62,550 nucleotides of DNA from Nitrospirota bacterium (GTDB taxonomy: Bacteria; Nitrospirota; Thermodesulfovibrionia; Thermodesulfovibrionales; UBA6898): contig SCQH01000093.1 of assembly GCA_004321925.1 (NCBI GenBank), positions 1 through 62,550 on the forward strand, read 5' to 3'. Both the position numbers and the translations under genes were made by a program. The notes beneath the pieces are model-generated. The model made no database searches. It was not told where the DNA came from and was given only the letters and a program-made list of their open reading frames with translations. This document shows, piece after piece, positions 4,448 through 23,832 of the stretch. Numbering within the stretch: the stretch's first letter is position 1; every line of letters begins with the position of its first letter.

Positions 4448-5755
4448 TTACATGGTGTAGCCGCTCTCGCCGTGCTGACTGAGGTCAAGGCCTTCAAACT
4501 CATCCTCGGCGTTCACCCTCAGACCAATGGTCCATTCGATGAGTTTAAGGATAACGACAGTAACCACGAAGGAATAAACCACCGTCACCGCAATACCGAG
4601 CGCCTGGATACCGAGGGTGCCGGCATTCCCGAAGAAAAGGCCATCGGCCCCTGCGGGGTTGATGAGCTTCTGAGCAAGAAAGCCTGCAGCCAGGGTCCCG
4701 AGGATGCCGCCTACCCCATGAACACCGAAGGCATCGAGGGAATCGTCATATCCAAGGCGTGCCTTGAGGTTCAGGGAGATATAACAAACGGCTCCGGCGC
4801 AGAGACCGATGAGCAGCGCAGACATCGGGCCTACATACCCTGATGCCGGGGTGATGGTCGCAAGCCCTGCGATCGAACCGGTCGCAGCACCGAACATGGT
4901 CGGCTTGCCGCGATGCAGCCATTCTATGATCACCCAGATGAGCGTTGCAGCGACCGCAGAGGCATGGGTGGCCACAAAGGTCGTCACACTGAGCGCCCCC
5001 GAGGACAGGGCGCTGCCTGCGTTGAACCCGAACCACCCGAACCAGAGCAGACCAGCGCCGACAACGGTCATCGGCAGGTTATGCGGGGTCATCGCCTCAT
5101 GCAGGTATCCCCTGCGCTTACCGATGACAAGGGCCGCTGCCAGGGCTGATATTCCGGAGGTCACATGGACCACGATCCCTCCGGCAAAATCGAGGACACC
5201 CAGATTCTTGAGCCATCCTCCGGTCCCCCATACCCAGTGGGCAACAGGATCATAGACAAGCGTGCTCCAGACGATGATGAAGACCAGAAACGCAGAGAAT
5301 TTCATTCTTTCAGCGATCGCGCCTGATATAAGGGCCGGTGTGATGACCGCAAACATCATCTGATATACCATGAATGCCATATGCGGTACGGTCGCTGCAT
5401 AATCGGGGTTCGGCACGAGCCCTACCCCCTTTAAACCGATCCAGTCAAGACCACCGATGATTCCATGAACGTCGGGTCCGAACGAAAGGCTGTAGCCACA
5501 GCAGATCCACTGTATGCTGACGACCGCGATCGCAACAAAGCTCTGCATATAGGTCCCCAACACGTTCTTCCGCCTGACCATCCCGCCATAGAACATGGCA
5601 AGGCCAGGCGTCATGAGCATCACCAGGGCTGTTGAGATGAGCACAAAGGCGGTATCGCCATTGTCGATCTTCGCAGAGGTCTCGGAAAAGGCCTTCAACG
5701 GCAGAACCAGCATGCCGGCAGCAATGAGAAACAGCAATTTTACTGATCGTATCAT
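4448..5755 (-). CDS. amtB: Ammonium transporter (Amt/MEP/Rh family)
   Basis: Inner-membrane ammonium channel/transporter of 435 residues. An N-terminal cleavable signal sequence (to about residue 24, ending KAFSE) is typical of AmtB, followed by about 11 membrane segments. Recognisable family segments are the MTPGLAMFYGGMVRRKN start, VYDPVAHWVWG, the pore histidine region GGIVVHVTSG, and the second pore histidine region FGVHGVGGILGT. The cytoplasmic tail EDEFEGLDLSQHGESGYTM is the conserved C-terminus that interacts with GlnK in relatives. No glnK is adjacent, which is unusual for an amt operon. GGAGG lies just before ATG 5755, and a sigma-54-like promoter stands 30-50 bases upstream, consistent with nitrogen control. 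Confidence 0.97.
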   Translation of the reverse strand: MIRSVKLLFLIAAGMLVLPLKAFSETSAKIDNGDTAFVLISTALVMLMTPGLAMFYGGMVRRKNVLGTYMQSFVAIAVVSIQWICCGYSLSFGPDVHGIIGGLDWIGLKGVGLVPNPDYAATVPHMAFMVYQMMFAVITPALISGAIAERMKFSAFLVFIIVWSTLVYDPVAHWVWGTGGWLKNLGVLDFAGGIVVHVTSGISALAAALVIGKRRGYLHEAMTPHNLPMTVVGAGLLWFGWFGFNAGSALSSGALSVTTFVATHASAVAATLIWVIIEWLHRGKPTMFGAATGSIAGLATITPASGYVGPMSALLIGLCAGAVCYISLNLKARLGYDDSLDAFGVHGVGGILGTLAAGFLAQKLINPAGADGLFFGNAGTLGIQALGIAVTVVYSFVVTVVILKLIEWTIGLRVNAEDEFEGLDLSQHGESGYTM

Positions 5756-5786: not shown

Positions 5787-5803
5787 AAGCCATTACTATG
5801 CCA
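5787..5803 (-). promoter_or_regulatory. Sigma-54-like promoter of amtB
   Basis: On the minus strand this reads TGGCAT-AGTAA-TGGCTT. The GG at -24 and GC at -12 are separated by exactly 10 bases, as the sigma-54 consensus (TGGCAC-N5-TTGCW) requires. Predicted start is near 5777, about 20 bases before the amtB ATG, leaving room for its GGAGG site. Confidence 0.6.
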
Positions 5804-8957: not shown

Positions 8958-10319
8958 TTAATCGGACTCGATCCCATATTTTTTCAGCTTTCTCCAGAGC
9001 GACACGCGGTCGATCCCGAGGATCTGGGCTGCAAGGGTCTTGTTGCCGCCGGACTCGGACAGGACCCAGGTAATATAGGACATCTCCTGGTCGTCAAGAG
9101 AGGGGATCTTCCCCTCCTTTTTTCTGAAGGTCCTGATGCTCAGCTCCCTGAGGTCCTCCGGCAGATGGGCAACCTCGATCAACCCGCTGTTGGCAAGTGC
9201 GACCCCCCGTTCAATGATATTTTCAAGCTCCCTGACATTCCCGGGAAAATCATATGCATTGAGGATAGCCACGACATCCGGGGAGACCTCGGTCACCTCC
9301 TTCTTCATGAGCGCCGAATACTTCTTGAGAAAATAATAGCCCAGCAGGGGGATGTCATCCTTTCTTTGCGCCAGGGGAGGAATGGTGAGCGAAACGACAT
9401 TCAGCCGGAAGAAAAGGTCCTGCCTGAAGGCCCCGCTGCGGATGACATCCTGGATGTTCCTGTTCGTCGCGGCCAGGAACCGCACATCCGTCTTCAGCGG
9501 TTCGGTCGAGCCGAGCCGCAGCACCTCTTTCTCCTGCAGGACCCTCAGCAGCTTCACCTGCATTGAGGGAGACATCTCGGTCACCTCGTCAAGGAAGAGC
9601 GTCCCGCCGCCGGCACGCTCGATCAGCCCCTTCTTCTGTTCAGCCGCACCGGTAAAGGCCCCCTTCTCATGCCCAAAGAGCTCATTGGCCAGCAGCTCTT
9701 CGGAAAAAGCACCGCAGTTTATCGCAAGGAACGTCTGATCGGACCTCTTACTGTTGAAGTGTATATACCTCGCAAAGAGCTCCTTGCCTGTCCCGCTCTC
9801 GCCGGTTATCAGGACATTGCAGTCTGTCGGCCCGATCTGGCGTGCCGTGTCGAGCAGCCTCTGCATGCCCGCATCCTGGGTGATGATCCTGACCTTGCCC
9901 TGATAATTTTCGATCTGCTCCCTGAGCTGCATATTCTCTTTCCTGAGCCTGACCTTTTCGACCGCCTCCCTGACGATCTTGCGCACTTCGTCGAACTTGA
10001 AGGGCTTGGCGATGTAATCGTACGCCCCCTTCTTCATGGCATGGATGGCGGATTCGACCGTGGCAAAACCGGTGATCATGATCACCTCAGTGTCCGGATA
10101 GAGCGACCGGCACTTTTTGAGGATCTGCATGCCGTCGACCTTCTCCATCTTGAGATCGGTCAGCACAACATCAAACATCTTCTCCTCGATGATCTTCAGG
10201 GCATTCGTACTGCTCTGGGTGCTCTGGACACGATATCCCTCCTTGACCATCACGTGTTCAAGGTTTCTTAATGCGATCAGTTCATCGTCAATGATAAGGA
10301 TGTTCGGCTTATGTTCCAT
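8958..10319 (-). CDS. Sigma-54-dependent response regulator (NtrC family)
   Basis: Transcription activator of 453 residues. The N-terminal receiver (about 6-122) has acidic IIDDE, phospho-acceptor Asp in VVLTDLKM and Lys in AKPFK. The central AAA+ domain (about 145-380) has Walker A GESGTGKE, the sigma-54-contact loop GAFTGA, Walker B TLFLDEV and a conserved arginine region NVRELENII. The C-terminal Fis-type helix-turn-helix (about 408-453) reads GGNKTLAAQILGIDRVSLWRK. The kinase gene lies 12 bases upstream on the same strand. Palindromes and a sigma-54-like promoter in the nearby divergent region are likely targets. Its receiver is unusually similar to that inserted in the Lon protease at 21823-23832. 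Confidence 0.95.
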   Translation of the reverse strand: MEHKPNILIIDDELIALRNLEHVMVKEGYRVQSTQSSTNALKIIEEKMFDVVLTDLKMEKVDGMQILKKCRSLYPDTEVIMITGFATVESAIHAMKKGAYDYIAKPFKFDEVRKIVREAVEKVRLRKENMQLREQIENYQGKVRIITQDAGMQRLLDTARQIGPTDCNVLITGESGTGKELFARYIHFNSKRSDQTFLAINCGAFSEELLANELFGHEKGAFTGAAEQKKGLIERAGGGTLFLDEVTEMSPSMQVKLLRVLQEKEVLRLGSTEPLKTDVRFLAATNRNIQDVIRSGAFRQDLFFRLNVVSLTIPPLAQRKDDIPLLGYYFLKKYSALMKKEVTEVSPDVVAILNAYDFPGNVRELENIIERGVALANSGLIEVAHLPEDLRELSIRTFRKKEGKIPSLDDQEMSYITWVLSESGGNKTLAAQILGIDRVSLWRKLKKYGIESD

Positions 10320-10331
10320 GGATCTCTTTCC

Positions 10332-11786
10332 TCATGAGCAGAGTGCCTCCCTCATCGGCAGCCGGATGATAAAGGTGGTCCCGACGCCCGGGCTGCTTTC
10401 CACCGCGATCCTGCCTTCATGTTCTTCGACGATCTCCCGGGCAACGAAGAGCCCGAGGCCCGACCCCATGCCCTCGTCCTTGGTCGTAAAAAAGGGTTCA
10501 AAGATCTTCTTGACAATATCAGGCTCTATGCCAAGTCCGGTATCGCGCATCCTGAGCTCAACCTCCCGGGCATCAGCATCCTCGAGCGCGGAAATGACGA
10601 TCTCCCCGTCGTCAGGGATGGCGTCTATGCTGTTTTTCAGGATATTGAGGATAGCCTGTTCGATGCGCTGCTTGTCCGCAACGATCCAGTAATGCTCCGG
10701 GATATCGATCTTCAGTTCAACCTTTGTCGGGATCTCTCCCTGGATCAGCCTGACCGTATCGGCCAGCAGTTCATGCAGGAGCAGCGGCTTGCTCTTGAAC
10801 TCCTTCTTCCGTGAGAACTCAAGAAGGGAATGGACCATTGCCTTGGCCCGGTCAACCTCTTTTTCAACCTGCTGCAGGAGTTCTTTCTTATAGACCAGAT
10901 CAGCCTCGTCGATCTCCTCCTGGAGTATCTGGCAGGAACTTGAGATATTGGAAAGCGGGTTGTTCAGCTGATGGGCGACGCCCGAGACCATGGTGCCGAG
11001 GCAGGCAAGCTTTTCGGACTGCAGGATCACCCGCATCTGCCGCGATTCAAGCTCCTTGAGCATCCTGGTGTAGGCATTGCTGAGGGACTGGATCTCGGTG
11101 TCTGAAGAATCAAGGGAGATCCTGTCGAAGTTGCCGTCGATGATCCTCTGCATGTTCTCCTCGACCTGTTTGAGGGGCCTGACCACCATGCGCGACATGT
11201 AACGCCCGATCAGCCCTCCCGCAACGATCAGAAAGACGATCGAAGCGAGGAGAATTCTTTTTGAGGAGAGTATCAGTGCTTTTATGTAGGTCCGCTCCGC
11301 CTGAGCGATCTCCTCCGTAGCAGTGATGAGTTTTTTCCCCTGGTCCCTGATCTGGGCCTCCAGAGTGAGCGTTTCCCTGCTGCCCTGCCGGTTGGCAATG
11401 CTGCTGCTGTAATACCGGTTCATCAGAGATTTATACTGCCCGATGGTCTTTTCGAGTGCCGAGATATCGGTGCCGGGCGAGAGCTTTGCGATCGCGGTCT
11501 TGTTCCTTTTCAGGATGCCTTCTGCCACCCCCGTGTAGCGGACGTTCTCAAGATACTCATCTTTTTCTTTATAGATGATAAAGTTCTTCTCAAACCTTCG
11601 CATCTCGAGACTGGCATCAAAGAACTGCGAGATGATGATACTGAAGTCGATCTTCTGCCTGATGGTCCGGAGATTGAGGTAGTTCAGCACCGAGACGATA
11701 ATGATCAGGGCCAGGCAGAGGTAATAACCATACCTGACCTTGTTCTGGATGCTCGTTTTGATACTGAACATGGATGATTCTATCAC
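10332..11786 (-). CDS. Membrane sensor histidine kinase
   Basis: Partner kinase of the NtrC-type regulator, 484 residues from a GTG start at 11786; an ATG at 11771 is an alternative. Neither has a clear ribosome site. Order of parts: first membrane helix (about 20-37); all-helical sensor region (about 40-170, resembling 4-helix-bundle sensors); second membrane helix (about 175-193); HAMP (about 193-250); HisKA with phosphorylation site GVAHQLNNPLSN; HATPase (about 370-480) with NILKNSIDAI, DTGLGI and GSGLGLFVA motifs. The ligand of the sensor region is not apparent. A palindrome of the proposed regulator-binding type lies 7 bases from its start, suggesting autoregulation. Confidence 0.95.
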   Translation of the reverse strand: MIESSMFSIKTSIQNKVRYGYYLCLALIIIVSVLNYLNLRTIRQKIDFSIIISQFFDASLEMRRFEKNFIIYKEKDEYLENVRYTGVAEGILKRNKTAIAKLSPGTDISALEKTIGQYKSLMNRYYSSSIANRQGSRETLTLEAQIRDQGKKLITATEEIAQAERTYIKALILSSKRILLASIVFLIVAGGLIGRYMSRMVVRPLKQVEENMQRIIDGNFDRISLDSSDTEIQSLSNAYTRMLKELESRQMRVILQSEKLACLGTMVSGVAHQLNNPLSNISSSCQILQEEIDEADLVYKKELLQQVEKEVDRAKAMVHSLLEFSRKKEFKSKPLLLHELLADTVRLIQGEIPTKVELKIDIPEHYWIVADKQRIEQAILNILKNSIDAIPDDGEIVISALEDADAREVELRMRDTGLGIEPDIVKKIFEPFFTTKDEGMGSGLGLFVAREIVEEHEGRIAVESSPGVGTTFIIRLPMREALCS

Positions 11787-11981: not shown

Positions 11982-11997
11982 TGGCACGAGACTTGTT
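11982..11997 (+). promoter_or_regulatory. Sigma-54-like promoter of the second TauE operon
   Basis: TGGCAC-GAGAC-TTGTT. The -24 hexamer is a perfect match and the -12 differs only in GT for GC, with the required 10 bases between GG and G. Predicted start is near 12008, ahead of the ribosome site AAGAGGTG and the ATG at 12049. Confidence 0.65.
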
Positions 11998-12048: not shown

Positions 12049-12177
12049 ATGACCAAGATAATGAGCAGACTCGAAGACATCCTCAGTGCAGTTGCTTTTA
12101 CTGATGCGGGTGAGTTTGGCAAGGCGCTCGAACTGGTCTTCAGGCATTGGGCATCTGTGCAGGGTGATGTTTCATGA
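12049..12177 (+). CDS. Small protein (42 aa) with the LEDILSAVAFTDAGE module
   Basis: First gene after the sigma-54-like promoter. It has ribosome site AAGAGGTG and an ATGA overlap with the next gene, which supports real translation. The 42-residue product starts MTKIMSRLEDILSAVAFTDA and continues GEFGKALELV. This is the same amphipathic module found at the start of the next gene, in the 59-residue protein at 12680 and at the end of the receiver protein at 18274. No known function; a protein-docking or regulatory helix pair is a guess. Confidence 0.65.
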   Translation: MTKIMSRLEDILSAVAFTDAGEFGKALELVFRHWASVQGDVS

Positions 12178-12650
12178 TGAAGAGGCTTGAAGATATGATG
12201 GCCGCTGTCTCCTTTGCAGAGGAGGGAGATGCTGAAGGTGCCAGGGAAATGCTCAGGGGCAGAAACGCCATCCTGCTGGCCATCTCTGACGTCTGCTTTG
12301 ACACGAGCGTCCTGAAGTATGCCCTGAACCTCGGTAAAAGGGTCCAGGCAGGCATCGACATCCTCTACCTGACCAGGGTCGAAGCGCATATCGACCAGAT
12401 CAGGGATTTCATGCAGACCGTATGCAAAGAGGGGATAGCCTGCAGACTCACAAAGACAGAGGGTTGCATGAAAAAAGCGATCCTTGAATATACCGATAAA
12501 AGGAGGGAGATAATCTTTGTTGTTGTCGGCTCAACACCTGAACTCGATATTGAGTGCCGGTCAGCTGAAAGGTCGCTTTCCGACGCCTGGAAGCGGCTGC
12601 AGTGTCCGTTAGTGGTCGTTGCAAAATCAGATATGCCATCAATGGCATAA
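12174..12650 (+). CDS. Small-module plus UspA-like domain protein
   Basis: 158 residues. Residues 1-30 (MMKRLEDMMAAVSFAEEG..) are the recurring small module. Residues about 31-155 form an alpha/beta domain with alternating strands (AILLAISDVCFDTSVLKYALNLG, DILYLTRV, EIIFVVVGS, PLVVVAKSD) like universal stress proteins, but without the G-x2-G ATP signature, so it probably does not bind ATP in the usual way. Translation is coupled to the upstream small gene by ATGA overlap. It probably forms a regulatory part of the TauE operon. Confidence 0.7.
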   Translation: MMKRLEDMMAAVSFAEEGDAEGAREMLRGRNAILLAISDVCFDTSVLKYALNLGKRVQAGIDILYLTRVEAHIDQIRDFMQTVCKEGIACRLTKTEGCMKKAILEYTDKRREIIFVVVGSTPELDIECRSAERSLSDAWKRLQCPLVVVAKSDMPSMA

Positions 12651-12679
12651 ATTAATAAATCATTCAGCAGGAGGACACA

Positions 12680-12859
12680 ATGAAACGGTTAGCCCGAAAA
12701 TTTGAGAATATGATGATGGCAGTGACCTTTGCGGAGGCGGGAGAACACGAGACGGCAAAGGAGATACTCAGGGATAATGACCGCCAGGATAAAACCGATC
12801 GTCTCAAACCATCAAAAAGGGCTGGCAAAGTACTTCGGGCAGCAGCACCGCCGCGTTAA
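12680..12859 (+). CDS. Small protein (59 aa) with the FAEAGEHETA module
   Basis: ATG 12680 follows AGCAGGAGGAC, a strong ribosome site. The product begins MKRLARKFENMMMAVTFAEA and contains GEHETAKEIL, then a basic low-complexity tail (RLKPSKRAGK). The first 30 residues match the recurring small module; the stretch FAEAGEHETA is identical to that at the end of the receiver protein at 18274. It sits 46 bases before the exporter in the same operon. Function unknown. Confidence 0.65.
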   Translation: MKRLARKFENMMMAVTFAEAGEHETAKEILRDNDRQDKTDRLKPSKRAGKVLRAAAPPR

Positions 12860-12905
12860 TTACCCATTACAGCATAAATCAAATAAAGAAGGAGGAAACA
12901 GAGTA

Positions 12906-14234
12906 ATGAGCTTTTTTAAGGAATTTGGACATTTCATGGTTATGGGTGCTCGGGCCCATGCAAAATGGGAACTCGACGTATCAAACCGCATTCTGCGCGA
13001 ACCGAAGCGGCTTGCGGTTTTCGGACTTTTGCTTCTGCCGATAATACTGGGAGGCATAGCCTTTGCCAGTGATATAGCGGGAGCGCTCCCATCGGTCCTT
13101 GGCGGCAAGAACACGTATTGCCCCTCATATTACACAAATCTTATCTTTCTGGCATCAATAGGCGTCGGCGTGTGCGCGGGCCTGATAACCGGCTGCATCG
13201 GTGCAGGCGGCGGATTCATAATTGCGCCTGCGCTGATGAGCGCAGGGGTAAAAGGCATCCTTGCAGTAGGTACCGACCTTTTTCATATTTTTGCAAAAGC
13301 AATCATGGGCAGCGTATTACACAGAAAACTGGGGAACATCTCTGTATCTCTGGCGGTAACCTTTCTGATAGGGTCCATAGGCGGCGCGACCCTCGGAGGC
13401 TACATTAACAGGACCCTGTATGAGTTCAACCCGGTATTAAGCGACGCGTTCATCACGACCATATATGTCCTGATGCTCGGGTTCCTCAGCTTCTACTCAC
13501 TTGCAGACTTTTTTAAATCAAGAAAACCGACAGTTCCGGAAAGCACCTCGGAAACCCGCACGTCAAAGGCCAGCGATGAGTCCATGACAGGCCTGGCCCA
13601 GAAGCTTCAGTCCATTAATCTTGCTCCGATGCTCCACTTCGACCAGGGAGTTGTCCCGGGCGGCAGAAAGATATCGGCAATCTTTCTTGTTCTGAGCGGC
13701 GCCCTGGTCGGCCTGGCAGCTGCAATCATGGGCGTAGGCGGCGGCTTTCTTACCTTCCCTATCTTCGTGTATATGCTTGGCGTTTCTTCAGCAACCACAG
13801 TCGGCACCGATATATTCCAGATCGTCTTTACTGCGGGGTATGCCGGTCTTGGCCAGTATGCTATCTATGGGTTCATTTTCTATACCCTTGCCATGGGCAT
13901 GCTGCTCGGCTCACTCATAGGCATCCAGGTAGGTTCACTGGTGACCAAGGTAGTTTCAGGCTCAACTATCCGCGGCTTTTATGCAGTTGCAGTTATGGCA
14001 GGCTTTGTCAACAGGGCTGCAGCTCTGCCTGTCAAGCTCGGGAAGATGGGATACATCAGTTTATCTCCTGAGACAGGAAAGTTGATCGAGAACATCGGCA
14101 TTTACGTTTTCTTCGTTGTTATCAGCATCTTCGCGATCTGGGTATTCGGAACGTTCTTCAGAAATATAAAGCATCTGAAGGGCGAGGAGGAGCCGTATAT
14201 AAAACATCTGAAGAGTGAGGAGGTGCATTCATGA
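12906..14234 (+). CDS. TauE/SafE-family exporter, second copy
   Basis: Membrane protein of 442 residues. ATG 12906 is chosen because GAAGGAGGAAA stands just upstream; the frame is open further upstream but that part overlaps the small gene at 12680. After a cytosolic N-terminus (about 1-35) comes a first helix, then two TauE halves. The first has GCIGAGGGFIIAPALMSAGV (about 96-115) and the second AIMGVGGGFLTFPIFVYMLG (about 276-295). A cytosolic linker (about 205-260) is hydrophilic and Ser/Lys-rich. The glycine motifs differ from those of the other TauE copy, so substrates may differ. Expression should depend on sigma-54 and the neighbouring kinase/regulator. Confidence 0.88.
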   Translation: MSFFKEFGHFMVMGARAHAKWELDVSNRILREPKRLAVFGLLLLPIILGGIAFASDIAGALPSVLGGKNTYCPSYYTNLIFLASIGVGVCAGLITGCIGAGGGFIIAPALMSAGVKGILAVGTDLFHIFAKAIMGSVLHRKLGNISVSLAVTFLIGSIGGATLGGYINRTLYEFNPVLSDAFITTIYVLMLGFLSFYSLADFFKSRKPTVPESTSETRTSKASDESMTGLAQKLQSINLAPMLHFDQGVVPGGRKISAIFLVLSGALVGLAAAIMGVGGGFLTFPIFVYMLGVSSATTVGTDIFQIVFTAGYAGLGQYAIYGFIFYTLAMGMLLGSLIGIQVGSLVTKVVSGSTIRGFYAVAVMAGFVNRAAALPVKLGKMGYISLSPETGKLIENIGIYVFFVVISIFAIWVFGTFFRNIKHLKGEEEPYIKHLKSEEVHS

Positions 14235-14917
14235 TCGCGAATAAAAAGGAATTCGGATTCGGGCTTGCGCTTTTCGTCGCCTTCTGGGTGGTCTTTGTCA
14301 TCATGCTTTCCCCTGTCTTCGAAGGGAAGAATTTGCTGGACTACATGGACAATCTCTATAACACGATCTCAAAGAAATCTTCCTACTACATCCCGGATGT
14401 AAAGAAAAAGGCTGATGCCTTTAGAGGGCAACAGATAGAATTCGTCGTAAAGGCAAAAGATGCAGACCAGGCAGGCAGGATGTCGAAGCTCTTTCAGGCG
14501 AGTCAGGCAACCGTGACCGTTGAAGACAAGAATGTCAAAGTAGGCGGAGATATCGGGATGATCTTTGACAATGTCCTTGCAGACGCCGATGCCATGTTTA
14601 AAAATGACGGCCCGGCCATCAAGAGCAAATACGGCTATGAAGAGAAGCAGGTCCTGTATGACTGGTGGAACGCGATGAAAGCTGCAGAAGCCAGTATGGC
14701 CAAGCAGGAAAAATTCAAGGAATCCACTACCTTCAACCGGGTGATGACAAAGGCCATAGAGCCCGCGTATAACTACTACGGCATACGTGCAACGGACATA
14801 AAGGAAAAGATCTGGATGGTAATTATTTCCCTCGCAGGCTATGTTATCTATACGATGTGGTACGGGTTTGCCATCCTCTTCATGTTCGAAGGATGGGGCA
14901 TGAGGCTTGAGCATTAA
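14231..14917 (+). CDS. Membrane protein with large extracytoplasmic domain, exporter partner
   Basis: 228 residues, ATGA overlap with the exporter gene, so translationally coupled. One helix near the N-terminus (about 10-30), an extracytoplasmic domain (about 31-190; Lys/Asp-rich, no Cys) and a C-terminal helix (about 196-220, IWMVIISLAGYVIYTMWYGF). No known domain recognised. Tight coupling suggests a subunit or substrate-capture partner of the TauE protein (inference). Confidence 0.7.
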   Translation: MIANKKEFGFGLALFVAFWVVFVIMLSPVFEGKNLLDYMDNLYNTISKKSSYYIPDVKKKADAFRGQQIEFVVKAKDADQAGRMSKLFQASQATVTVEDKNVKVGGDIGMIFDNVLADADAMFKNDGPAIKSKYGYEEKQVLYDWWNAMKAAEASMAKQEKFKESTTFNRVMTKAIEPAYNYYGIRATDIKEKIWMVIISLAGYVIYTMWYGFAILFMFEGWGMRLEH

Positions 14918-17753: not shown

Positions 17754-18125
17754 ATGAATAGAAAGATCAACATCCTTCTTGTCGATGACGAACAGGATTT
17801 TCTGGAGACGACCACGAAAAGACTGGCGCGCCGCGGTTATGATGTCAGGAGCGCCATGAATTGCTCTGACGCGATCCGGATCGTCGGGGACGGCTGGCCG
17901 GAAGTCGTTGTTCTGGATGTTATGCTTCCTGACAGGGACGGCATACAGTGCCTTAAGGAGATCAAGCAGAAATGGCCTTCTGTCGTCGTTATCTTGCTTA
18001 CAGGCCATGCCTCCATGCAGGCAGGACGGCAGTGCCTGGAATACGGGGCCAACGATTACTGCCTGAAACCTATTGAACTTGACGAACTGGTAGAGAAGAT
18101 CAAAATTGCCCTAAAAAATGCATAA
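17754..18125 (+). CDS. Single-domain response regulator (CheY-like)
   Basis: 123-residue receiver alone. Acidic pair in LLVDDEQDFLE, phospho-acceptor Asp in VVVLDVMLPDRDG, Thr in LLTGHAS and Lys in CLKPIE are all present. GAGGAGAATAGGG precedes the ATG. No output domain, so it should signal by protein contact or serve as a phosphate relay. It lies 45 bases after the phosphotransferase gene and belongs to the same plus-strand cluster as the kinase at 18741. Confidence 0.92.
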   Translation: MNRKINILLVDDEQDFLETTTKRLARRGYDVRSAMNCSDAIRIVGDGWPEVVVLDVMLPDRDGIQCLKEIKQKWPSVVVILLTGHASMQAGRQCLEYGANDYCLKPIELDELVEKIKIALKNA

Positions 18126-18269
18126 CGACAGACTCGATATGCTTCAGGGTGACCATCAGGAGAAGCTGAGTGTTTCTATGGTACAATGATTCGGGACTGG
18201 CAACAGTTCCTGAAAGCGGAAGAAGAGGAAGATCTGATATGCACATATTTGTTCTGCCGGCGGGGCTAA
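18118..18269 (+). other. Two overlapping very short reading frames of doubtful status
   Basis: The 148-base gap between receiver genes holds ATG 18118 to TGA 18189 (23 codons, MHNDRLDMLQ...) and ATG 18186 to TAA 18269 (27 codons, MIRDWQQFLKAEEEEDLICT..). They overlap by ATGA. Neither has a convincing ribosome site. They could be a remnant of a lost or frameshifted gene. Confidence 0.25.
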
Positions 18270-18273
18270 GCCT

Positions 18274-18723
18274 GTGAGCGACATCAAAATTATGCTTATT
18301 GACGATGACGAGGAAGGTCCCATAAGGGTTCTGTCCGAACGTCTTGAGATAAGGGACTTCAGAAAGAATACCGCTTTTGACAGCGAACAGGTAATAAAGA
18401 TGATACGTGACCAGGAGCCCGACATAATGATTCTTGACCTGAAAATATCCGGTATCGACGGGATGGAAGTCCTGCGAAGGGTGAGAATGAACTATCCGGA
18501 TATACGGGTCATAATCCAGACGGCACATGGCAATGACATGGATGAGGCTGAGGCGCGGCAGCTCGGCGTATTTGACTATTTAAAAAAACCGGTAGACGTC
18601 GAATTGCTGGCAGAGCGGATAAGAGCCGCGGCAAGAAGCATAAGGCAGAAAGACCTTATGGCTGCGTCGGCCTTTGCTGAAGCCGGAGAGCATGAGACGG
18701 CACGCACCATGATGAAAGGATAA
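18274..18723 (+). CDS. Response regulator receiver with C-terminal small module
   Basis: 149 residues from a GTG start (18274), the first start codon consistent with the receiver fold. Receiver about 1-118: acidic LIDDDEE, phospho-acceptor in IMILDLKISGIDG, Thr in IQTAHG, Lys in LKKPVD. The last 25 residues (KDLMAASAFAEAGEHETART..) are the same small module as in the proteins at 12049, 12174 and 12680. No DNA-binding output domain. The module may dock the receiver to a shared partner (inference). Confidence 0.85.
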   Translation: MSDIKIMLIDDDEEGPIRVLSERLEIRDFRKNTAFDSEQVIKMIRDQEPDIMILDLKISGIDGMEVLRRVRMNYPDIRVIIQTAHGNDMDEAEARQLGVFDYLKKPVDVELLAERIRAAARSIRQKDLMAASAFAEAGEHETARTMMKG

Positions 18724-18740
18724 CCCGGCACTTTTCTGTC

Positions 18741-20417
18741 ATGAAGATCTATACCGGCACCATAAGCATGAAAGATCTTAAGCTCAAGTCAAGCGGCACC
18801 TATTACGCCAGACAGAAACAGCTTTTTGTCCTTGTGGTTATTATAGTCTCGGTGCTGCCCCTCCTGATCATCAGCTGGACTGCGTCCCATTATTACAAAA
18901 AGTCCTGGCTTGAGAAGACCTCTGCTGAACTGGCCGGACTTGTTGACAGCAGAAAAGAGATCATCGACCTTTTTCTTGATAACCAGGAGAACATGCTTTT
19001 CAGTTTTGTGAAGCTCTACAGCGTGGATCATCTCAGCGATCAGAAAAATCTGGAAAAACTTTTCCTGGCCATGGACCGCAGTGGTGTCATGGTGGACCTT
19101 GGGGTAATAGACAGCAAGGGAAAGCACCTCGCCTACACAGGGCCTTATCAGCGCCAACTCACAGGCAAGAATTATTCAGAGGCCGCGTGGTTCATTGAGG
19201 TGATGCGCAGCGGCAGATATATCAGTGATGTCTTCACCGGGTACCGCAATGAGCCGCATTTTGTTGTAGCGGTAGCTGACCCGGGAAAGACCTGGATATT
19301 GAGAGCTACTATCAACTCAGAACTTTTTAATTCCCTGCTCGCAAGTGCCGGGGTCGGGCCCGGAGGAGATGCCTATATTATTAACAGGGCCGGGGAGTTT
19401 CAAACGCCTAGCCTGCTCGGAGAAAAGGCGTTATCGGCCGTTGAGAGAACGCAGGTCACAGCCAAAGACAAGGCGTTGGTCCGGATCACCGATAAATATA
19501 TTTATGCTGCAGCGCCGATAAATAACGGCGATTGGACCCTTGTACTGAAGACGGATATTAACACCTCTCTGTCTGAGTTCTATCTGGCCCGGAGACGTGA
19601 CATTCTGATCATCCTGTTTGCATCTCTCATCATTCTTGTGGTGTCAACGCTTATAGTCAGGTCCATGGTGAACAAGATCGAAGATGCGGACAAAAAGAGG
19701 ATGGCCCTGAACAATCGTATGCTGCAGGTCGAAAAGATGGCGCTTGTAGGCAGACTGGCTGCCAGCGTAGCACACGAAATCAACAACCCGCTTCAGATAA
19801 TTACCAATCAGGCAGGCTGGGTAGATGAACTTCTGGAGGAGGAAGACCAGGGCCTTCTCAAGAATATTGACGAATACCGGGATTCAATAAAGAAGATACG
19901 GGAAAATGTGAAAAGGGCCGGAGTAATTACCCGCCGTCTGCTCGGTTTTTCACGAGCAAATGATTTTGAAAAGACTGAGACGGATATCAACCACCTCATT
20001 GAAGAGACAGCCGCCCTTCTTGCAAACGAAGCCAGTGCCCATCGTATCACGTTCAGATATTTTCTTGAACAGGGACTGACACGTGTGGTGACCGATGCCT
20101 CACAACTGCAGCAGGTTTTTTTGAATATTCTGGACAACGCCATAGATGCCATTGGACAGGACGGCACCATCAGCATAACCACCCGGATCAACGGCAATCA
20201 GCTCGTGGCAGAGTTTAAAGATACCGGCCCCGGCCTGTCGCCGGATGCAATAAAGAAGCTCTTTGATCCCTTCTATACAACCAAGGAGATCGGCAAGGGC
20301 ACCGGGCTCGGTCTGTCCATCTCATTCAGTATCATGCAGCGGCTTGGTGGTGACATAAAAGCAGAAAACGGAAAGGAAGGGGGCAGTGTATTTACCGTCA
20401 TGCTGCCCATGCAATAA
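18741..20417 (+). CDS. Membrane sensor histidine kinase with extracytoplasmic Cache-like domain
   Basis: 558 residues. First membrane helix about 28-50, extracytoplasmic sensor about 51-285 (double-Cache style; contains DSKGKHLAYTGPY and GDAYIINRAGEFQTP), second helix about 290-310. Then a short linker and HisKA with phosphorylation site ASVAHEINNPLQIITNQ, and a HATPase (about 430-558) with NILDNAIDAIG, DTGPGLS and GTGLGLSIS. Flanked on both sides by receiver genes, which are its likely partners. The ligand is unknown; Cache domains usually bind small carboxylates or amino acids. Confidence 0.93.
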   Translation: MKIYTGTISMKDLKLKSSGTYYARQKQLFVLVVIIVSVLPLLIISWTASHYYKKSWLEKTSAELAGLVDSRKEIIDLFLDNQENMLFSFVKLYSVDHLSDQKNLEKLFLAMDRSGVMVDLGVIDSKGKHLAYTGPYQRQLTGKNYSEAAWFIEVMRSGRYISDVFTGYRNEPHFVVAVADPGKTWILRATINSELFNSLLASAGVGPGGDAYIINRAGEFQTPSLLGEKALSAVERTQVTAKDKALVRITDKYIYAAAPINNGDWTLVLKTDINTSLSEFYLARRRDILIILFASLIILVVSTLIVRSMVNKIEDADKKRMALNNRMLQVEKMALVGRLAASVAHEINNPLQIITNQAGWVDELLEEEDQGLLKNIDEYRDSIKKIRENVKRAGVITRRLLGFSRANDFEKTETDINHLIEETAALLANEASAHRITFRYFLEQGLTRVVTDASQLQQVFLNILDNAIDAIGQDGTISITTRINGNQLVAEFKDTGPGLSPDAIKKLFDPFYTTKEIGKGTGLGLSISFSIMQRLGGDIKAENGKEGGSVFTVMLPMQ

Positions 20418-20427
20418 GGGACCCCAG

Positions 20428-20883
20428 ATGATGAAAGCGCACAATGAAAACAGCCGTTCAGACGCAAATTTAATGGCCTCGTGCAGTGTCCTGATCGTTG
20501 ATGATGAGAAGGATTTTGTCCATACCCTTTTGAAAAGACTTAAGCGCAGGGGCCTTGAATGCGAAGGCGTTTTCACCGGTGAGGAGGCGATAGAGACAGT
20601 CAAATCCAGACAGTTCAACATCGTGCTTCTTGATATGAAACTGCCGGGCAGGGATGGCAACAGCACCCTGGTGGAGATCAAAAAGATACAGCCTGATGCA
20701 GAGGTGATCATTTTGACCGGACATGCCTCAGCGGACGATGGCATCGCGGGTATGAAAAATGGAGCGATGGACTATCTGATGAAGCCGGTAGAATTCGAAT
20801 CTCTTCTGGAAATGCTGTTAAAAGCAGTTCGTAAAACAGACTGCTCACACAGCCTCCCTGTCAGGGACAAGGGAGAAAAGTAA
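20428..20883 (+). CDS. Response regulator receiver protein
   Basis: 151 residues from ATG 20428 (AAGGGA site upstream; 10 bases after the kinase stop). Receiver domain about 18-135 with LIVDDEKDF, phospho-acceptor in IVLLDMKLPGRDG, Thr in LTGHAS and Lys in LMKPVEF. Short polar ends, no output domain. It lies last in the phosphotransferase/kinase cluster and is probably a phosphorylation target of the kinase immediately upstream. Confidence 0.9.
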   Translation: MMKAHNENSRSDANLMASCSVLIVDDEKDFVHTLLKRLKRRGLECEGVFTGEEAIETVKSRQFNIVLLDMKLPGRDGNSTLVEIKKIQPDAEVIILTGHASADDGIAGMKNGAMDYLMKPVEFESLLEMLLKAVRKTDCSHSLPVRDKGEK

Positions 20884-21822: not shown

Positions 21823-23832
21823 TCAGTGTTCAGGACGGATCAATACGGCATCGACCACATCGCCGATCTGGTCGGCGAAAAGAAAACCGAGGCCTTCCTT
21901 CACATCCGCGGGCAGACTCTCTATGTCGTGGGAGTTGCGGTGAGGCAGGATAACCGTCTTGACCCCTGCCCTCTTTGCAGCAAGGACCTTCTCCTTGATG
22001 CCGCCGACAGGAAGGACGCGGCCCGAAAGAGTCATCTCCCCTGTCAGGGCAATATCCCGAGCCGCGGGTCTTCCGGTCATCAGGGACAGAAGCGCAATAG
22101 CGATCGTGAGGCCGGCGGACGGGCCGTCCTTCGGGATGGCGCCTGCCGGGATATGAACATGGATGTCGTGATCGGCAAAGAAATTCTCAGCGATCCCGAA
22201 CCGTTTGGCGTTGCTCCTGATGAAGCTTAACGCCGTGTAGGCCGATTCACGCATCACATCGCCCAGGGACCCGGTCAGGATAAGCTCGTGCTGGCCCTTC
22301 ATCATGACCGCCTCGATGAAGATGATGTCGCCTCCAACCTCGGTCCAGACCAGCCCGGTCGACACCCCGACCGTATCGGCCTCCTCGGCGACCTCATAAT
22401 AGTATTTCCTCGGGCCAAGCGAGCGTTCGATCATCGTGCCATCCACGGTAAGATCCGAAACATTCTCTTTATGCTGGACAAAGTCCCGGGCGATCTTCCT
22501 GCAGATGGTCGCGATCTCCCGGTTGAGGTTCCGGATGCCGGCCTCCCGCGTATATTCCTGGATGATGCGGGAGAGGGCCTCGTCGGTGAAGACCGGCGGG
22601 TTCGCGGAAAGTCCGTTCTCCATGATCTGGCGGGTGACCAGAAAACGGGATGATATCTGGACCTTTTCGGCCTCGGTATAACCGCTGAAATGGATCACCT
22701 CCATACGGTCGCGCAGGGCATCAATGATGTTGTCGGAGACATTTGCGGTGATGATAAAGATAACATCCGAAAGATCGAACGGCACGTCGACATAATGATC
22801 GGTGTAGTTATGGTTCTGCTCGGGGTCGAGCACCTCAAGCAGGGCCGCGGAGGGGTCTCCCTTGAAGTCCGACCCGAGCTTGTCCAGTTCATCAAGGATG
22901 ATAAGCGGGTTTGATCTGCCGGTGCGCCTGATCTCCTCGATGATCCTGCCGGGCATTGCCGCGGCATAGGTCCGCCGGTGGCCGCGTATCTCTGCCTCGT
23001 CCTTGATGCCGCCGACAGATATCCTGGCAAAGGTACGGCCGAGGGCCAGGGCGATCGAGCGCCCCAGCGAGGTCTTCCCGGTGCCCGGAGGGCCGGAAAA
23101 ACAGAGCACCGAGCCTTTGGTGTCCTGCCGGTAACTGCGCTTATCCAGGGCCTGCTTCACCATTGCCCTGACCTCATCGATCTTGAACGGCTTGGGGATA
23201 TAATGAAAAGCCCCTTTTTTCATCGCCTCGATGGCCGTGTCTATGGTCGCATAGCCGGTGATCATGATCACCTCGGTGTTGGGGGAGCGGGCCTTGATCT
23301 TTGCGAGCACCTCCATGCCGTCGATCTTCTCCATCCGGAAGTCGGTCAAAACAACATCGAACTCTGCCTGCGAGAGCTTCTCGAAGGCCTCGGCGCCGTT
23401 TGCGGCGGTCACGACCGTATAATTCTCCTTTGAAAGGATATGGTCGAGATTCCTGCGGGCGACCTCCTCATCATCCACCACCAGGATCATCGGCTTCCTC
23501 TCCCTCTTCAACTTCTTGACTGCCAGGTATTCCAGGATCCGGTCCTTGATATTTTCGAGTCCGTAGTGGTGTTCGTTCAGGATCCGTTCGGCGCGGTCGA
23601 TGTCGAGGTTATCGTCGGTCCTTTTGTTCCAGGGAAGCGATGCAAGATATTCGATATAGCTCAGACCGATCGTAAATTCGGAGGTGGAAGGGCTCACCCT
23701 GCTCAGCATGTCGAGTTCTTTATGGGCGATCTGTTCGGCCTGTGCAGGCATTCCGGACAGGGCTATCTTCTGCCTCAATTCATCGATGACAGGGTCCGGC
23801 TGGTTCTCCTCATTTTTTCCGAAGAATTTCAT
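21823..23832 (-). CDS. Lon-type ATP-dependent protease with an inserted response-regulator receiver domain
   Basis: 669 residues. Residues about 1-110 are the helical part just before the Lon ATPase (IEYLASLPWNKRT, GLENIKDRILEYLAVKKL); the usual N-terminal substrate-binding domain is absent. A complete receiver (about 114-230) follows: LVVDDEE, phospho-acceptor Asp in VVLTDFRM, Thr in MITGYAT, Lys in PKPFK. The Lon AAA+ domain then resumes with Walker A GPPGTGKT, ILDELDKLG and a sensor-type NVSDNIIDALRDRMEVI. The protease domain has catalytic Ser in PKDGPSAG and Lys in GGIKEK. Proteolysis or unfolding is thus likely gated by phosphorylation. The partner kinase is not adjacent. Confidence 0.92.
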   Translation of the reverse strand: MKFFGKNEENQPDPVIDELRQKIALSGMPAQAEQIAHKELDMLSRVSPSTSEFTIGLSYIEYLASLPWNKRTDDNLDIDRAERILNEHHYGLENIKDRILEYLAVKKLKRERKPMILVVDDEEVARRNLDHILSKENYTVVTAANGAEAFEKLSQAEFDVVLTDFRMEKIDGMEVLAKIKARSPNTEVIMITGYATIDTAIEAMKKGAFHYIPKPFKIDEVRAMVKQALDKRSYRQDTKGSVLCFSGPPGTGKTSLGRSIALALGRTFARISVGGIKDEAEIRGHRRTYAAAMPGRIIEEIRRTGRSNPLIILDELDKLGSDFKGDPSAALLEVLDPEQNHNYTDHYVDVPFDLSDVIFIITANVSDNIIDALRDRMEVIHFSGYTEAEKVQISSRFLVTRQIMENGLSANPPVFTDEALSRIIQEYTREAGIRNLNREIATICRKIARDFVQHKENVSDLTVDGTMIERSLGPRKYYYEVAEEADTVGVSTGLVWTEVGGDIIFIEAVMMKGQHELILTGSLGDVMRESAYTALSFIRSNAKRFGIAENFFADHDIHVHIPAGAIPKDGPSAGLTIAIALLSLMTGRPAARDIALTGEMTLSGRVLPVGGIKEKVLAAKRAGVKTVILPHRNSHDIESLPADVKEGLGFLFADQIGDVVDAVLIRPEH

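Follow-up and report, generated by a model that had tools for sequence, protein, structure and literature searches.

A receiver-containing Lon protease of Nitrospirota and its probable place in a branched three-component stress system

Introduction

Known bacterial routes that place proteolysis under two-component control mostly depend on an adaptor separate from the protease, as with RssB, or CpdR, and ClpXP. In Desulfovibrio vulgaris, the response regulator DVU3303, whose output is a Lon protease, forms a three-component general-stress system with the kinase DVU3304 and the regulator DVU3305, and it has been proposed that the protease activity of DVU3303 requires phosphorylation (Rajeev et al. 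2011, PMC3333781). The targets of the NtrC arm are genes for membrane and UspA-type proteins (PMC3333781), and DVU3303-3305 are themselves listed as a DVU3305 target, that is, as a self-regulated unit (PMC4641369). Orthologues were reported in Thermodesulfovibrio (Nitrospirota), Thioalkalivibrio and Dechloromonas, those of Thermodesulfovibrio being associated with a Lon response regulator (PMC3333781). Later work (Trotter et al. 2023, PMC10102598) found that DVU3303, DVU3304 and DVU3305 are each a disadvantage during growth in chlorate and that their mutants have cofitness values above 0.9 in every pair, whereas the target DVU3299, a putative anion transporter, is needed; protease, kinase and regulator act together in these genetics. 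Our literature searches on receiver-Lon proteins yielded only the D. vulgaris papers.

Here we analyse a stretch of 62,550 nucleotides from a Nitrospirota bacterium (GCA_004321925.1, contig SCQH01000093.1), referred to below as the window. An earlier note on its sequence had pointed out a Lon protease with a receiver domain, here named LonR, and had suggested that one kinase might drive transcription and proteolysis together. Since this hypothesis was published in 2011 (PMC3333781), the proposal is a rediscovery in another phylum, and the family of LonR is one that sulfate-reducing bacteria have already been shown to possess. The three-component layout recurs in the window and in relatives: as in DVU3303-3304-3305, genes for a histidine kinase and an NtrC-type sigma-54 activator lie near that of a receiver-Lon fusion. 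Membrane and UspA-type genes are targets in D. vulgaris; in the window a conserved sigma-54 site precedes an operon for Usp-like and TauE proteins, the putative target of the NtrC arm. DVU3303-3305 are listed as one self-regulated unit, whereas lonR lies about 10 kb from the kinase in the window, 76 bp after pth and in the same orientation, and lacks a sigma-54 site. We link DVU3303 and LonR through the descriptions in these papers and through homologues in a second phylum that have the same neighbours. New in the present study are the evidence on receiver kinship and specificity, the conserved sigma-54 site of the regulon and a short peptide that we call the FAEAGE-type peptide.

Results

The gene lonR (21823..23832, minus strand, ATG start) encodes 669 amino acids with Pfam and NCBIfam matches to both a receiver and a Lon protease. 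The receiver comprises residues 116-226 (23155..23487, minus strand; Response_reg, 111 bits), and its best NCBIfam receiver models are AtoC and the NtrC family. It is followed by the large subdomain of the AAA+ ATPase at residues 243-382 (22687..23106, minus strand; Pfam AAA), with Walker A GPPGTGKT at 247-254 and Walker B Asp314-Glu315, by Lon_lid at residues 405-456, and by the protease domain at residues 463-665 (21838..22446, minus strand; Lon_C, 280 bits). The protein scores 731 bits against TIGR00763 (endopeptidase La), for which the curated cut-off is 608. Ser572, within PKDGPSAG, and Lys615 occupy what we take to be the Lon catalytic dyad positions. Both are invariant among 19 aligned LonR homologues, as are the Walker A and B motifs and, in the receiver, the acceptor Asp164 together with Asp120, Asp121, Thr192 and Lys214. 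Across 46 homologous receivers from two phyla, the acceptor Asp, the first acidic Asp and the Lys were kept in all; 44 also keep the Thr and the second Asp of the acidic pair, where the other two have Ser and Glu. The earlier statement that Asp, Thr and Lys are kept is confirmed, and judged by these residues the LonR receiver looks phosphorylatable. The two receivers with the Asp-to-Glu and Thr-to-Ser changes come from the second phylum (loci L193 and L194), where we saw no A-type kinase/NtrC pair (the type found in the window, described below) in the fetched flank; they offer natural cases in which to study how a receiver loses its kinase.

The genome also encodes a canonical Lon as a separate gene on another contig (C104), to which residues 238-665 of LonR are 55% identical. 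In an alignment of the two, the receiver is a near-pure insertion between the first helix of the AAA module and the Walker A strand. At the junction the canonical protein reads EYLSVRKLKDK directly followed by MKGPILCF, whereas LonR reads EYLAVKKLKRERKP, then the receiver, then DTKGSVLCF; the receiver is bounded by ...EYLAVKKLKRERKP and ...TKGSVLCFSGPPGTGKT, and almost no residues are lost at the insertion point. The receiver had been thought to replace the segment just before Walker A. The alignment rules out such a replacement of part of the ATPase; the part that LonR lacks is the LAN domain at the N-terminus. Only about 112 residues stand before the receiver, the gap is visible in the alignment to the canonical Lon, and no LAN match was obtained with Pfam in LonR. 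LonR shares the AAA+ module, the lid and the Ser-Lys protease domain with LonA (for example the Lon of E. coli, Bacillus or Meiothermus) but carries a receiver before Walker A and no LAN substrate-binding domain, and because this N-terminal domain is absent it is better regarded as a Lon variant, an incomplete LonA. With NtrC/AtoC-type proteins it shares the receiver type, but its output is a protease and theirs an ATPase that activates sigma-54 and has a DNA-binding domain.

An AlphaFold2 model built from 19 sequences (mean pLDDT 82, pTM 0.68) shows a standard receiver fold. In this model alpha5 of the receiver is one helix spanning residues 218-237, and the Walker A strand (242-246) begins five residues further on. 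The best fold matches in the PDB are LonA structures. No PDB entry was seen that combines a receiver and a Lon within one chain.

Of 61 genomes of the Nitrospirota range, 26 encode a full-length LonR and one more a partial copy. A second phylum, apparently Desulfobacterota, was sampled with 148 genomes, 18 of which have the gene. Conservation of the family thus extends to two phyla or more. Among viruses, the matches listed contained no receiver-Lon protein and were, by match length, ordinary Lon or other AAA proteins. The partial copy belongs to a genome of the same genus (G002; locus L104, 17114-17629), in which only LonR residues 493-664 were found beside an intact kinase and NtrC gene, possibly a decaying lonR.

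In the window the kinase and NtrC genes lie 12 bp apart on the minus strand. The kinase (10332..11786) is a membrane-type histidine kinase with HAMP, HisKA and HATPase domains and, by its domains and synteny, the candidate shared kinase; the NtrC-type sigma-54 activator, labelled NtrA (8958..10319), was identified by Pfam, receiver comparison and tree. We call them the A pair. An orthologous pair is present on the same stretch as lonR in 17 of 25 fetched Nitrospirota loci, with no gene in between in 7; in the second phylum it lies near lonR in 13 of 18 loci. Genes for Usp and TauE proteins and orthologues of the genes at 12174 and 14231 recur between or beside LonR and the pair. Restricting the count to genomes at least 90% complete, the partner NtrC was present in 19 of 21 with LonR and in 18 of 32 without it (Fisher p 0.013, a value that ignores relatedness). 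A pair of a second family, B, abuts lonR in about ten relatives (loci L078, L080, L086, L088-L092, L097 and L099). The region of the window that separates the NtrC pair from lonR also holds a cluster (17754-20883) of one Cache-domain kinase gene and three genes for stand-alone receivers, and genes like those of this cluster recur near LonR loci in L094, L096 and L198.

From 121 profile matches in the genome, 113 receivers were extracted for comparison. Those of LonR and NtrA are reciprocal best matches within this set, with 61 of 115 residues identical (53.0%, 137 bits); the second-best match of the LonR receiver reaches 119 bits at 47% identity, and the B-family NtrC is likewise 47% identical. 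The earlier figure, about 62 in 116, is corrected by this count. Such a value lies well above that of typical receiver pairs, as had been suggested: for 27 gapless receivers of 115 residues the pairwise identities have a median of 33%, and a value of 53% or higher is seen in only 4 of the 351 pairs. Over 30 loci from two phyla, the LonR and NtrC receivers of the same genome are on average 55% identical.

The earlier note had taken a phylogeny of the two receivers as one test of its proposal. In a tree of 63 receivers from the Nitrospirota set (IQ-TREE), those of LonR and of the orthologous NtrC proteins form one group (88 UFBoot, 91 SH-aLRT) that is distinct from the B family and from 26 further receivers, the nearest ones in the genome. 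Within it neither the LonR receivers nor the NtrC receivers form a supported clade of their own, and the monophyly of each was not rejected (p-AU 0.28 and 0.44). When receivers of the second phylum were added, the joint clade was no longer resolved in a tree based on 115 columns. A clade of LonR with the B-family receivers was 19 log-likelihood units worse and unrejected (p-AU 0.12). In the Nitrospirota set the two kinds of receiver were not set apart from each other, the outcome that would have counted against the proposal.

At four positions in alpha1, presumably those that determine kinase specificity in the HK853-RR468 work, LonR has VANI and NtrA has IANV. Of 108 receivers checked, only these two carry [VI]-A-N-[VI], and the contact residues of the B family are IT[NH]T. 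Published work names alpha1 as one specificity-determining part of response regulators, which concerns the region and not the exact positions (PMC2991266). The beta5-alpha5 loop is also similar, KPFKIDEVR in LonR and KPFKFDEVR in NtrA. Four genomes, two of them less than 90% complete, have LonR without the partner NtrC (G001, G003, G006 and G007); there the loop reads KPLxADDVK, KPFTLEEVL or KPFEAEDVI instead of KPFKLDEVR. In the tree L078 is sister to L080 and L092 to L101, so that these changes amount to at most two events, and locus L079 has the partner NtrC yet a differing loop (KPFTIDDVR). The change where the partner is missing tracks relatedness as well and may be read as a hint only.

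Upstream of the operon on the plus strand lies a sigma-54 (-24/-12) site, TGGCACGAGACTTGT (11982..11996), an exact match to TGGCACGNNNNTTG. Over the whole window the general sigma-54 pattern occurs at chance level, so that conservation across relatives is the sole support that makes this site convincing: sites with at most two mismatches were found upstream of orthologues of the gene at 12174 in 19 of 24 loci, where 0.6 are expected by mononucleotide shuffling. The first gene past the site encodes a 42-residue peptide (MTKIMSRLEDILSAVAFTDAGEFGKALEL..., 12049..12177, FAEAGE profile match 2.4e-14). It is followed by a universal-stress-protein-like protein (12174..12650), assigned by comparison of its AlphaFold2 model with Usp structures (best 3tnj, E 6.8e-6, TM 0.48-0.56), by a stand-alone protein of 59 residues (MKRLARKFENMMMAVTFAEAGEHETAKEIL..., 12680..12859, FAEAGE profile match 7.1e-18), by a TauE/SafE-family anion exporter-like protein (12906..14234, Pfam TauE) and by a conserved membrane-type protein without Pfam match (14231..14917). 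For the TauE gene the ATG at 12906 behind AGGAGG appears the better start, and the listed TTG at 12729 is probably wrong; moving the start frees the 59-residue reading frame at 12680-12859.

Sigma-54 control of lonR itself was considered and found unsupported: sites occur upstream of 2 of 39 lonR genes, against 0.6 by shuffling, and none lies in the 76-bp gap between pth and lonR. At the orthologous loci of the kinase and NtrC genes there was likewise no excess over shuffling. Given that sites are not in excess upstream of LonR, control of the Nitrospirota protease by its sister regulator through sigma-54 is probably absent, unlike in the D. vulgaris listing. A weak sigma-54-like site with two mismatches is present elsewhere in the window, at 5789-5803 on the minus strand, about 34 bp upstream of an ammonium transporter gene (4448-5755).

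Three consecutive proteins of the operon share a peptide of about 30 residues with the consensus ..MxAxTFAEAGE(F/H)ETARExM.., which stands alone in the 42- and 59-residue proteins and lies at the N-terminus of the Usp-like protein. By profile match, copies in the window are at 12049-12177, 12174-12270, 12680-12780 and 18637-18720, the last at the C-terminus of a stand-alone receiver (18274..18723, plus strand). Two more were located outside it in this genome (G000), on contigs C99 (30340-30429) and C15 (1042-1137), both within 4 kb of B-type NtrC genes; the profile counts seven copies here, six of them located, and matches in 53 of 61 genomes. The copies that we inspected lie near A-family and B-family kinase/NtrC systems. 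Two representatives scanned against Pfam and NCBIfam gave no convincing match (TPR_4 at E 0.024 only), and the profile matched no PDB sequence. The peptide was modelled with low confidence as a helical hairpin (pLDDT 53-59). It apparently has no earlier description and may be a tag, a docking element or a dimerisation element. Its occurrence is not tied to LonR, and it persists in many genomes without lonR.

Discussion

We consider it probable that LonR forms the proteolytic arm within a branched stress system of three components, in which one kinase serves two receivers. The kinase at 10332-11786 would sense stress, autophosphorylate and pass phosphate to the NtrC-type regulator, which would switch on the sigma-54 operon 12049-14917 and thereby provide the Usp-like protein, the small proteins and the TauE-type anion exporter. 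The same kinase may also phosphorylate Asp164 of LonR. Phosphorylation would then shift the alpha4-beta5-alpha5 face of the receiver, and because the modelled alpha5 helix ends five residues before the Walker A strand, the receiver could work like a lever that switches the assembly or the ATP use of the ATPase ring. The most likely outcome would be that proteolysis is turned on. Since the D. vulgaris phenotypes share their sign, protease and regulator would be expected to work in the same direction. The earlier idea that one kinase drives transcription and proteolysis draws support from the grouping of the receivers, the contact residues, the synteny and the D. vulgaris genetics, all consistent with one kinase that may serve both arms; it is weakened by the loss of the joint clade when the second phylum is included and by the unrejected clade of LonR with the B family.

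This last point bears on the question of the kinase. The LonR receiver could be fed by another one, either of the B family or the Cache-domain kinase at 18741-20417, which lies nearer to lonR than the A pair does. B pairs abut lonR in the ten or so relatives named above, two of which, L078 and L080, have no A pair, and kinases like that at 18741 adjoin lonR in L193 and L194, where no A pair was seen within the fetched flank. We nevertheless regard this as unlikely, as the LonR receiver is closer to the NtrC of the A pair than to that of B (53% against 47%), its contact residues fit [VI]AN[VI] and not IT[NH]T, a clade with B costs 19 log units (p-AU 0.12), and the published cofitness links the protease to the DVU3304/3305 pair (PMC10102598). 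The insertion directly at the ring and the loss of the N-terminal substrate-binding domain would also suit a receiver that acts independently of phosphorylation, as a structural or docking module for ring assembly or for recruitment of a partner or substrate. Receivers that work in this way are known in general, which speaks in part for such a role. Given that the phosphorylation pocket is kept throughout two phyla (Asp and Lys in 46 of 46 receivers, the other acidic residue and Thr in 44) and that the kinase-contact residues are kept too, we find it distinctly improbable for LonR.

The common terminal peptide of the regulon proteins is a plausible recognition element and raises a further reading, namely that LonR provides feedback by degrading some component of its pathway (NtrC, kinase or FAEAGE-bearing regulon proteins) and so antagonises the transcription arm. 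Lon proteases commonly recognise terminal sequences, which favours this in part. However, the peptide persists in many genomes that lack lonR, and the D. vulgaris mutants in protease, kinase and regulator behave alike, with cofitness above 0.9 (PMC10102598), a result that speaks against LonR simply opposing NtrC; we judge such feedback highly improbable. The presence of the peptide in many genomes without lonR also weakens the case for a LonR-specific degron. One could still imagine the peptide as a recognition or docking tag of the signalling family that delivers proteins to the phospho-controlled Lon among other destinations, so that proteolysis would be both tag-directed and kinase-gated, but this must be regarded as very doubtful.

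We retain the branched system as the preferred reading of the locus. If the receiver built into the protease is indeed a switch, LonR would represent direct phospho-control of an AAA+ protease and would offer a compact system to learn how phosphorylation controls ring ATPases. With the receiver type common to LonR and NtrC, the notion of one kinase with two outputs becomes a defined phosphotransfer question.
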